Shown here in pieces: positions 22,574 to 29,000 of a stretch of DNA of 64,000 bases. The translations under genes and the position numbers were made by a program. The notes beneath the pieces are model-generated. The model worked only from the letters and a program-made list of their open reading frames with translations, did not search any database and had not been told where the DNA came from. This stretch comes from an uncultured Bacilli bacterium (GTDB lineage Bacteria; Bacillota_I; Bacilli_A; RF39; UBA660), in the NCBI GenBank assembly GCA_944350495.1, contig CALVOZ010000001.1, positions 1 to 64,000 on the forward strand. The letters are read 5' to 3'. Every line of letters starts with the position of its first letter. Within the stretch, counting starts at the first letter, position 1.

Positions 22574-22609
22574 CAAAATAAAAGGAATATCAAAAAATGC
22601 TGATATTCC
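22574..22609 (-). terminator. Terminator of the bacteriocin operon
   Basis: Arms GGAATATCA and TGATATTCC followed by TTTTATTTTG on the minus strand. It overlaps the 3' end of the immunity-like gene and closes the operon that starts at 25603. Confidence 0.7.
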
Positions 22610-22760
22610 ATTCTGCAACATAACGTGCTATAGTGCCAAAATAACGACCCAAATTTAAAAGTAAATGGCACCCGAACATTATTGCTATAGTTAAACTAAT
22701 AAAAAATATAAAATATAAAACATATTTAAATAATTTATTATTGAAGATTATATTTTGCAT
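22590..22760 (-). CDS. Immunity-like membrane peptide of the bacteriocin locus
   Basis: A 56-residue peptide with one hydrophobic membrane segment (about residues 12-34, LFKYVLYFIFFISLTIAIMF) and an amphipathic rest (GCHLLLNLGRYFGTIARYVA). Its ATG lies inside the last codons of bacteriocin peptide 2 in another reading frame, with GGAAA just upstream, so it is translationally coupled. It has no double-glycine leader, so it is not a third bacteriocin precursor. Position at the end of the operon and small size fit a self-protection protein of class IIb systems, but I do not recognise a named immunity family. Confidence 0.6.
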   Translation of the reverse strand: MQNIIFNNKLFKYVLYFIFFISLTIAIMFGCHLLLNLGRYFGTIARYVAEWNISIF

Positions 22761-22912
22761 ACTTTTCCACTAAAGAATCTTCTAATAGCACTTCCCATAC
22801 TTCTTCCAACATCTAAAAATACGCTTGCACCTCGCACTATTGCATTTAATAGTGTAGCTGTTATTGTTCCTCCTGTTACTTCCATTAATTGATTTTTATC
22901 TAATTCTTTCAT
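22748..22912 (-). CDS. Bacteriocin precursor, peptide 2 (double-glycine leader)
   Basis: A 54-residue precursor. The leader MKELDKNQLMEVTGG has the classical double-glycine pattern (hydrophobic residues at -4, -7 and -12; G-G at the cut). The predicted 39-residue mature peptide is cationic and amphipathic, contains a G-x-x-x-G motif (GRSMG) and has a single cysteine three residues from the end (VCKI). GAGGAATT lies directly before the ATG, and the gene starts 9 bases after peptide 1 ends. With peptide 1 it fits a two-component (class IIb) bacteriocin whose peptides pair through G-x-x-x-G helices; activity is inferred. Confidence 0.8.
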   Translation of the reverse strand: MKELDKNQLMEVTGGTITATLLNAIVRGASVFLDVGRSMGSAIRRFFSGKVCKI

Positions 22913-22921
22913 AATTCCTCC

Positions 22922-23062
22922 TTAATTACATTTTAATGGTCTTATATAACCATCAATTAATCCGATTAGAAAAGAGACACCAAATGGGACAAATGCTAAC
23001 CATCCGACTGATATAGCACCACCATTTATTTCTTTTAAATTTTCTTTTGTTAATTCTTTCAT
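22922..23062 (-). CDS. Bacteriocin precursor, peptide 1 (double-glycine leader)
   Basis: A 46-residue precursor. The leader MKELTKENLKEINGG is nearly the same design as that of peptide 2 and matches the substrate rule of C39 peptidases. The predicted 31-residue mature peptide is hydrophobic with a G-x-x-x-G motif (GLIDG) and ends IRPLKCN, with one cysteine second to last. GAGGAAAG lies before the ATG. It sits immediately downstream of the transporter and its accessory gene and upstream of peptide 2. Shorter than most gene finders accept, so easily missed. Confidence 0.8.
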   Translation of the reverse strand: MKELTKENLKEINGGAISVGWLAFVPFGVSFLIGLIDGYIRPLKCN

Positions 23063-23088
23063 TTTCTTTCCTCGCTTTATTAATTTTT

Positions 23089-23535
23089 TTATTTTTCTAA
23101 TTCAGTTTTTATTTTATAAATCACATCTTCAAAAAAAGTTTTTTCATCTTTTAAAAATTTTACCTGTATTTGGTTGTTTTCGACAATCCAATTGCTTGGC
23201 ATCTTTACCTCTAAAATAACTTTCCAATATTCTATTTCTGTCATATTATACATATATTCTGTAAGCGCTACTACCTTATACTTGTACTTTTTATTATTTA
23301 TCACTAACGTATCACTATTATCTTTATTAAAAAATTCATCACCAACATATAATTCTAAATAACCATTTTTAATTACACTATTATATACAAGATATTTCTT
23401 ATACTTTAAAGAGGTTGCTACAACTATAAACAATATAGTACTCATAACTAATATTATAATCCAAGAATATATTGGCTTAGGTACTTGGGTATAAGTTGCA
23501 ATAAATGAAGTTTTATATGTATCTATTTTATCCAA
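23089..23535 (-). CDS. Short membrane-anchored bacteriocin export accessory protein
   Basis: A 148-residue protein with one membrane segment (about residues 23-43, IYSWIIILVMSTILFIVVAT). Behind it lies a beta-rich external domain (VIKNGYLELYVGDEFF, YKYKVVALTEY, WKVILEVKMPSNW). It overlaps the transporter gene by 8 bases and so is made with it. Position and topology match the HlyD/ComB-like accessory proteins of C39 exporters, but it is far shorter and lacks the long coiled-coil arms and lipoyl domains. It may be a minimal version of that role. No sequence family recognised. Confidence 0.65.
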   Translation of the reverse strand: MDKIDTYKTSFIATYTQVPKPIYSWIIILVMSTILFIVVATSLKYKKYLVYNSVIKNGYLELYVGDEFFNKDNSDTLVINNKKYKYKVVALTEYMYNMTEIEYWKVILEVKMPSNWIVENNQIQVKFLKDEKTFFEDVIYKIKTELEK

Positions 23536-25603
23536 GACGCACTAAATCCTTTTCTATATAGCCATTCATAATGCAAACATGGTGGTCATATAAATCTAAG
23601 TTGTCTAGCCTATGTGAGATAACTATAATAGTCTTATTGTCATATTTACTAAAAAGTTTTTTTAAAATTCTTCTTTCCATATCAACATCCACTTGACTTA
23701 AACCCTCGTCAACAATTAATATCTCAAATGGTTTTACTATTGTCCTAGCTAAAACAATTCTTTGTCTTTCTCCGCCTGATAAATTAAAACCATTCTCTTC
23801 AATTAATTTGAAATATCCTAAATTACTATTTTTAATTATATCTTCGATTTCACATACATTAAATATTTCATTTAATTTATCAACATTAATATTTCTCTCT
23901 AAAACTATATTATTATATAAAGAATCAGTAAATAAAAATTCAGATTGATTGATATATGAAATACTGTCACTTTTACAGTAATCATTTATATCATACTTAC
24001 CTATAATTATTTTTCCTCTTTCAACTGGATAATATTTCTTTAAAAGTTTAAGTAGAGTGCTTTTACCACACCCACTTTTTCCCGTTATTAATACTTTTTC
24101 ACCTTTCTTAATTTTTAAGTTTATATTTTTTAAAACCTTATTGGTTCGATTATAGGTATAACTCAAATTTTTAAATTCAATATCTCCATACATTTTTTTC
24201 TTAATATAGCCAATCTCTTTATTTTGAACAAAAAGCTCCTTTAATCTAACTATTGCCTTTTTCATATTTTTTGTATCCGCATCTAAATCTACTAAATCGC
24301 GAATAGGATTTAAAAAATAATTCATTAAATTACTATAAGTTAATAATAATCCTAATGTCATTTGCTCTTCTTTTACTAAACAACATCCTAAATAAAAAAT
24401 TACTAAATAACCGACTGCATGGATTAATTCTTTTAAAAAATTTTCTAACAACGAAAGTTTTTGAAATTTATGGAGTGAGTTTAAAAAGGTACTTTCTTGG
24501 TTCTCAATTTTTTTTATTACTTTATTTTCTATATTTATTCCTTTTAATGTTTCAAACGCATTAATTGCTTCAATTTGTTTTGAAGTTAAGACAGAGTTTT
24601 CATTATGGCAACTATCAATCGTAGTATCTAGGGGGGTATGAAATGATTTTAGTACAATCCAATATAGGACAAACATTAATAAAGTAATTGATGTCAATTT
24701 TGTATTTATTATATAGAGCAAGATTGAAGACACTATCATTAGCGGAACATCTACCACTATAATCATTAGCCAGCGACTTAAAGTATCTCTAATAATGGAA
24801 ACATCTTTTAGTCTTGTTAAGATATCACCACTATTATGATTTCGGTAATAGCTATATGGAAGCAATAAAATTTTTTTAAAAGAATCCGTTGTTAATATCA
24901 GTTCTATTTTCTTCGTTATATAAGTAAAAACAATATCTCTAAAATATTCACTTACATTTTTTATAACATTAATTATAATAAATATTATAAATAACATTAA
25001 TAAGTAATTTTTACTAATATTTAAACCATCTAATAAAAATTGACTAGAATAAGATAATATAACAGAATAAACAATTACAAATAAAGATAAAAAAGCAATA
25101 TTAACAATTAATTTTTTTTGGTTTTTAAATAAAGTTAAAAAATCAAGTATACTAATTTTGCTTTTTTGTTCAAATGGTATTTTAGCTTCTGGATACATAG
25201 TTAGAATAATTCCATTATATATTGATTTGAAAGATTCAAATGAAATCTTTTTTATTTTATCTGCAGGATCGGCAATAACAATTTCTTCTTTTTTATAGTT
25301 TATTTCATATATTACTACAAAATGAGTATAAGATTTGTTAATAATTACATTAGCAATTAGAGGATAAACAATTTTTTCCTGTTTTAATTGTTCCAATTCA
25401 CACTTAAATCCTGAAGCTCTAAAACCAATTTCTTTGGCTCCTTCAATTAGATTATATGCGGTTGTACCATCTTTGGTAATGTTAATTAAATTACGAATAT
25501 TTTCCATATTTAAATAACCATTATAGTATTGAATTATCATCGATAAGCAAGCAGCCCCGCAATCTTTACTTTCTTCTTGTTTAACAAACGGATACTTTTT
25601 CAT
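23528..25603 (-). CDS. Bacteriocin-processing ABC transporter with C39 peptidase domain
   Basis: A 691-residue fused exporter. Residues 1-130 form a C39 cysteine peptidase: QEESKDCGAACLSMI carries the catalytic cysteine, YTHFVVIYEI the histidine and VIADPA the aspartate. These cut double-glycine leaders. Then come six membrane segments and an ATPase with Walker A GKSGCGKST, signature NLSGGERQRI, Walker B ILIVDEG and H-loop SHRL. The ATG at 25603 was chosen for GGAGGTGATGAA; the frame extends to a GTG at 25654 without a site. It is the first gene of the bacteriocin operon and should process and export both peptides. Confidence 0.95.
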   Translation of the reverse strand: MKKYPFVKQEESKDCGAACLSMIIQYYNGYLNMENIRNLINITKDGTTAYNLIEGAKEIGFRASGFKCELEQLKQEKIVYPLIANVIINKSYTHFVVIYEINYKKEEIVIADPADKIKKISFESFKSIYNGIILTMYPEAKIPFEQKSKISILDFLTLFKNQKKLIVNIAFLSLFVIVYSVILSYSSQFLLDGLNISKNYLLMLFIIFIIINVIKNVSEYFRDIVFTYITKKIELILTTDSFKKILLLPYSYYRNHNSGDILTRLKDVSIIRDTLSRWLMIIVVDVPLMIVSSILLYIINTKLTSITLLMFVLYWIVLKSFHTPLDTTIDSCHNENSVLTSKQIEAINAFETLKGINIENKVIKKIENQESTFLNSLHKFQKLSLLENFLKELIHAVGYLVIFYLGCCLVKEEQMTLGLLLTYSNLMNYFLNPIRDLVDLDADTKNMKKAIVRLKELFVQNKEIGYIKKKMYGDIEFKNLSYTYNRTNKVLKNINLKIKKGEKVLITGKSGCGKSTLLKLLKKYYPVERGKIIIGKYDINDYCKSDSISYINQSEFLFTDSLYNNIVLERNINVDKLNEIFNVCEIEDIIKNSNLGYFKLIEENGFNLSGGERQRIVLARTIVKPFEILIVDEGLSQVDVDMERRILKKLFSKYDNKTIIVISHRLDNLDLYDHHVCIMNGYIEKDLVRLG

Positions 25604-28805: not shown

Positions 28806-29000
28806 ATGAATAATAATCGATACTATATGAATTATAGAAGAAATGATTTAAATAACGAAAGATTTGGTTTTTTAGGGCCATTTATTTTAGGTGGAATTAC
28901 TGGTGGTTTAGTAGCGCCACTCTTCTATCAGAGACCATATTATCAACAACCATACTATTCAAATAATTATTATTATCAATATCCTCCATACTATTATTAA
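28806..29000 (+). CDS. Small tyrosine-rich protein with a glycine-rich hydrophobic helix
   Basis: A 64-residue protein with a strong ribosome binding site (GAAAGGAGTTTAGAT). It has a basic N-terminus, a short hydrophobic stretch (FGFLGPFILGGITGGLVAPLF, residues 20-40) and a tail in which tyrosines dominate (RPYYQQPYYSNNYYYQYPPY). Similar small tyrosine-rich proteins occur in spore coats and surface layers of Bacillota, where tyrosines may be cross-linked. I do not know the family. It is divergent from the 27876 gene and followed 30 bases later by the phospholipase-like gene. Confidence 0.6.
   Translation: MNNNRYYMNYRRNDLNNERFGFLGPFILGGITGGLVAPLFYQRPYYQQPYYSNNYYYQYPPYYY

Follow-up and report, generated by a model that had tools for sequence, protein, structure and literature searches.

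The stretch of DNA analysed here (the window) comprises 64,000 nucleotides of contig CALVOZ010000001.1 of an uncultured Bacilli bacterium and carries, on its minus strand, two adjacent genes for small secreted-type peptides, here named pepA and pepB, together with a C39-peptidase-containing ATP-binding cassette (ABC) exporter. A first-pass annotation, made from the letters alone, had interpreted this arrangement as a class IIb (two-peptide) bacteriocin locus. The gene order is: U32 peptidase gene, exporter, accessory protein, pepA, pepB, gene C, terminator-like hairpin, rpsU, and yqeY. The 148-amino-acid accessory gene, gene C and the terminator after it had escaped that annotation; the hairpin is the sole terminator-like one detected between 22400 and 25900. 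Conservation was assessed in 91 loci from about 70 genera, namely the window, 10 other loci of its genus and 80 more, mostly one per genus. The features, with their support in these loci, are:

22922-23062, minus strand: pepA precursor, 46 amino acids (leader 23062-23018, mature part 23017-22925); open reading frame, with a profile match in 174 of 193 family genomes
22949-22963, minus strand: G-x-x-D-G motif of pepA (GLIDG); GxxxG at 89 of 90 loci, Gxx[DN]G at 86 of 90
22928-22930, minus strand: invariant Cys45 of pepA (90 of 90 loci)
22748-22912, minus strand: pepB precursor, 54 amino acids (leader 22912-22868, mature part 22867-22751); open reading frame, with a profile match in 177 of 193 family genomes and, in the order, in 270 of 288
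22793-22807, minus strand: G-x-x-x-G motif of pepB (GRSMG); 91 of 91 loci
22757-22759, minus strand: invariant Cys52 of pepB (91 of 91 loci)
23528-25603, minus strand: C39-peptidase-containing ABC exporter, 691 amino acids, recognised by its Pfam domains; homologue upstream of pepA at 91 of 91 loci
23089-23535, minus strand: accessory protein, 148 amino acids, one transmembrane helix and a beta domain, membrane-fusion-protein-like (AlphaFold2, VIA-align)
22590-22760, minus strand: gene C, 56 amino acids, leaderless, with a single transmembrane helix and, after it, a GRYFGTxxR motif like that of pepB; its first 13 nt are shared with the end of pepB
22635-22649, minus strand: G-x-x-x-G motif of gene C (GRYFG); GxxxG in 47 of 47 C genes
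22584-22609, minus strand: intrinsic terminator-like hairpin at the end of gene C, with a 10-pair stem and a T tail
27837-25678, minus strand: U32 peptidase gene
22490-22278, minus strand: rpsU (ribosomal protein S21), with its own promoter-like site at 22530-22502

Both precursor genes lie exactly where the first-pass annotation had placed them, each with a sequence resembling a ribosome-binding site before its ATG. As described there, they encode double-glycine leaders (MKELTKENLKEINGG and MKELDKNQLMEVTGG) followed by mature parts of 31 (pepA) and 39 (pepB) amino acids, and each mature part contains one G-x-x-x-G motif and one cysteine near its C-terminus (residue 45 of 46 and residue 52 of 54, respectively). 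The pairing on which the bacteriocin interpretation depended is found at every one of the 91 loci, with pepA preceding pepB on the same strand; the distance between them was measured in 82 loci and is -10 to +36 nt in 81 of these. The G-x-x-x-G motif occurs in 180 of 181 peptides, while shuffled mature parts gave 44.6 for pepA and 25.1 for pepB. A cysteine is present among the last eight residues of all of them, the shuffled values being 23.9 and 20.2. Both features are so far above the shuffled expectation that they are not due to chance. Exactly one cysteine is found in 84 of 90 pepA and 78 of 91 pepB products. The conserved tail of pepA is F-x-x-G-x-x-D-G-x-x-R-P-L-x-C; that of pepB is G-R-S-L-G-[ST]-A-I-R-R, with the cysteine about seven residues further on. 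The mature peptides of the family, 29-43 amino acids long, are hydrophobic helices with pairing motifs, and AlphaFold2 predicts one helix for each. A common origin of pepA and pepB was considered and rejected: an hhalign alignment of the two exists, mostly over the leader. A search of PDB sequences with both peptide profiles gave nothing convincing, the sole bacteriocin-related rows being leader fragments (CtA peptide and carnobacteriocin B2). At one exceptional locus (L090, 6108-6795), pepA and pepB are 710 nt apart instead of about 10.

The export machinery is equally constant. The exporter at 25603-23528, already named in the first-pass annotation, is a genuine C39 transporter according to Pfam (Peptidase_C39, 2.9e-36; ABC_membrane, 5.5e-32; ABC_tran, 3.2e-24), and its homologues are always on the same strand as pepA. 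The accessory protein was modelled by AlphaFold2 with fair confidence (pLDDT 81). Its best VIA-align neighbours are membrane fusion proteins, such as MexA (Z 7.5, rmsd 3.0, 86 aligned residues), BesA, MacA, CusB, and HlyD (Z 5.6), all of them structural matches below the safe level (Z 7.5 or less, Foldseek E > 0.001). Between exporter and pepA, 64 of 89 loci have a spacing of 328-495 nt, which leaves room for the accessory gene. In one genome (G001; L028 / L015, L016; G001:C24:20915-22947) the exporter is divided into two separate frames, possibly by a frameshift or an assembly error, with both peptide genes intact. Elsewhere in the window's genome, a 472-amino-acid frame gave another Peptidase_C39 match, a weaker one of 26.9 bits (G000:C1:271714-272070, L002).

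Downstream of pepB, 47 of 91 loci have a short transmembrane open reading frame whose start lies between 50 nt ahead of and 5 nt past the end of the pepB stop codon. At 23 loci, the commonest case, it starts 13 nt inside pepB, an arrangement suggestive of translational coupling between the two genes. These frames were not selected by motif, and the other 1103 short transmembrane frames of the same loci served as control: GxxxG occurs in all 47 C genes versus 20 of the 1103, and the longer GxxxG[TSND]xxR in 39 of 47 versus none. In agreement with this, hhalign gave a 48-column alignment of the gene C and pepB profiles (probability 96.0%, E 4.2e-9), the probability with pepA being 0.7%; matches to Pfam were at chance level only. 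The gene C product is leaderless and has a single transmembrane helix, with about three Lys/Arg among its first 15 residues. The simplest reading of these sequence features is that gene C is a paralogue or mimic of pepB kept in the membrane of the producer, where it would most likely act as an immunity protein, occupying A (the mature pepA product) in place of B (that of pepB). Immunity proteins as small as 42-55 amino acids are known (PMC6957408).

The distribution of the pair was examined at several taxonomic levels. Of the 12 genomes of the window's genus, 11 have the exporter, each with both peptides beside it. Profiles built from these 11 loci were searched against 193 genomes of the family, representing 149 genera: pepA matched in 174 and pepB in 177, ribosomal protein S9 being found in 178, so that the peptide-less genomes are about as many as genome incompleteness explains. 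The genomes of this family are of 0.4-1.8 Mb, and even the smallest ones retain the pair. All the genomes of the order matched by a broader pepB profile (270 of 288) are listed as belonging to the same family. Elsewhere in the class, matches were weak only, mainly over the leader half, and the same was true for pepA in a sample of the phylum. Because of the S9-like prevalence inside the family and the leader-only matches outside it, the pair is near-core within one family and absent outside by the profile test. No close relatives were found by tblastn against plasmids, and a scan of genome contigs with the exporter matched just two remote ABC transporters.

Vertical inheritance of the pair is favoured by the conserved rpsU neighbourhood and by the relationships of the genes. 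The rpsU gene lies within 1.2 kb downstream in 47 of the 83 loci with enough downstream sequence. In the genera sampled at least twice, the nearest relative belongs to the same genus for 27 of 30 exporters, 28 of 31 pepB, 20 of 31 pepA and 18 of 18 yqeY. The distances of the exporter correlate with those of yqeY, a housekeeping gene itself linked to the locus (Spearman 0.57, permutation p 0.002). In other families of the class, a separate single Gly-Gly-leader peptide was noticed beside an apparent valyl-tRNA synthetase gene (L203:5532-5747, L204:5782-5958, L205:4970-5149). Its mature end resembles YRLFMSSxGxTTLPGGFKFTWD, and a similar peptide is found at L206:5229-5396; these small genes seem to form a further conserved family. 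Near the locus of the window there is also a 64-amino-acid open reading frame with a Tyr/Pro-rich tail (28806-29000, plus strand).

Taken together, these observations can be accommodated by a vertically inherited, near-core system resembling class IIb bacteriocins, in which A and B would permeabilise competitors and gene C would likely provide immunity; the chances that this reading is right seem to us about even. According to it, the C39 domain of the exporter would cut both leaders after Gly-Gly and export the mature A (31 amino acids) and B (39 amino acids), aided by the membrane-fusion-like accessory protein. Outside the cell, the G-x-x-D-G motif of A and the G-x-x-x-G motif of B would form a membrane helix pair able to permeabilise the membranes of competing bacteria. 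The lone C-terminal cysteines probably cross-link A with B: a disulfide between the partners had been suggested from the window alone, and the invariance of the cysteine in both peptides strengthens this idea. With its positive N-terminus and single transmembrane helix, gene C would stay in the membrane of the producer, where, by its copy of B's pairing motif, it would most likely occupy A in place of B. There is strong support for an architecture of class IIb type, but the first-pass annotation is borne out only in part: the near-core, syntenic distribution is unlike that of a standard bacteriocin, patchy or mobile.

It is important to note that several points weigh against this interpretation. 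Such a presence across a whole family is unusual for a bacteriocin, and a role of another kind is conceivable. At 44 of 91 loci, among them 6 of the 11 in the window's genus, neither gene C nor a substitute was identified, so that a universal need for immunity by gene C is not shown. The AlphaFold2 model of A and B as a single chain through the in-frame pepA stop (23 paired rows) reached a pTM of 0.49 with no reliable interface. Known class IIb peptides with one helix lack cysteines (PMC10100652). Finally, a DsbA-like oxidase (PF13462, Thioredoxin_4) was not detected in the window's genome; the cysteines may therefore be oxidised spontaneously or by a different enzyme, or have some other use.

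The core distribution makes a housekeeping or self-directed role the main rival. The pair would still be secreted, paired and membrane-active, and would serve programmed lysis, an envelope function or the tapping of nutrients from neighbours, instead of being a weapon of competition. Being as universal as S9 in genomes of this size, occupying a conserved site beside rpsU in about half of the loci, and lacking a recognisable gene C in about as many, the pair fits such a role, and a precedent exists in the gonococcal Nap peptides, for which antimicrobial activity could not be detected and which drive autolysis (PMC11798529). Against it, the two-peptide G-x-x-x-G layout and gene C resemble bacteriocin operons; on balance we consider it a serious though rather unlikely explanation. 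A more specific proposal, which we advance tentatively, is that a disulfide-linked membrane pair represents a near-core family trait with a basic lifestyle function, such as controlled self-lysis or making neighbours permeable to obtain their nutrients; in many lineages a paralogue of pepB, leaderless and anchored in the membrane, would guard it.

Two other roles are less likely. One is that A and B are pheromones serving cell-cell communication: C39 exporters also secrete such peptides, and a few pepA members weakly match ComC or EntF induction-factor models through the leader. The mature peptides are, on the contrary, hydrophobic helices with pairing motifs and not short pheromones, and signalling would require neither two always-linked peptides nor a pepB-like membrane protein. 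In addition, no regulator gene is present beside the pair within the window, with whose genes the neighbours at the other loci were compared (the genome has one LytTR gene elsewhere, on contig 2). This role is accordingly improbable. An action on gut epithelium or immune cells of the host appears more improbable still. Its precedent is the MAM protein of Faecalibacterium, which has a conserved Gly-Gly site and is encoded near a C39 exporter in certain strains (PMC8836110); A and B showed no likeness to it, in an analysis that included no comparison aimed at MAM, and gene C suggests a bacterial membrane as the target.

Bacteriocins are commonly regarded as accessory traits of patchy occurrence. 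Sampled in at least 138 genera and there as common as a ribosomal protein, a pair of bacteriocin type would be a striking exception among them, and this distribution points to a role bound up with the biology of reduced-genome bacteria; the pair probably serves some basic need in the life of these organisms with tiny genomes. With gene C, immunity through mimicry of a partner can be tested cleanly at the sequence level, and the invariant lone cysteines offer a direct test case for a covalently linked two-peptide agent. From a practical point of view, the family profiles would permit the annotation of many overlooked small genes.

Lactococcin G and enterocin C are two-peptide bacteriocins that target UppP/BacA. 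The presence or absence of UppP did not explain that of gene C in the family, since the two are not associated (Fisher p 0.53). UppP/BacA (PF02673) was not found in the window's genome (G000, an assembly 94% complete) and is present in 170 of the 193 family genomes; this may reflect a real loss or an assembly gap. The peptides described here share with the lactococcin G and enterocin C type two one-helix peptides of similar size with a single G-x-x-x-G each, and differ from the lactococcin G type in having one cysteine per peptide where none exists (PMC10100652). The lactococcin G models are matched weakly, beta (NF038034) by pepA and alpha (NF038035) by pepB. These matches remain below the cut-off of 37 bits, the detailed scores being 14-23 (14.4 for the window's pepA, 23.2 for the best).

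More generally, every known class IIb bacteriocin pairs through G-x-x-x-G (PMC12765074), and the locus combines two adjacent precursors with Gly-Gly leaders, GxxxG in both, and a C39 exporter. Among the closest known groups is that of lactobin A and cerein 7B (NCBIfam TIGR03949), with which the Gly-Gly leader and the G-x-x-x-G motif are shared. The earlier statement that the peptides match no known bacteriocin should be qualified accordingly: pepA at 25.2 exceeds the cut-off of 21.5 and pepB at 19.6 stays under it, the match lying partly in the leader and stopping before the conserved RPLxC tail. Among the pepA homologues, 33 of 44 match this model at E up to 0.01. No paper describing the pepA-pepB family was found in the open literature (subscription papers were outside the search). 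A C39 ABC exporter with a small accessory-like protein is also known from Mycoplasma (NF045998, Mbov_0121; NF045999, MAG1140), but the window's proteins score under those cut-offs (300.5 versus 500 for the exporter, 15.7 versus 35 for the accessory protein).

With regard to immunity, a parallel is gallocin A, two peptides with cysteines whose third gene, gip, confers immunity; in models, GIP mimics the structure of the two bacteriocin peptides (PMC10100652). The gallocin peptides have two cysteines each, an intramolecular bond and a helical hairpin, whereas those of the window have one cysteine each and a single helix, and the mimicry is here visible in the sequence and directed to one partner only. 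The gonococcal Nap peptides are likewise bacteriocin-like, processed by a C39 peptidase and accompanied by an immunity gene, but they are three peptides of a horizontally acquired island acting in autolysis (PMC11798529), while the pair described here is a near-core trait of its family.
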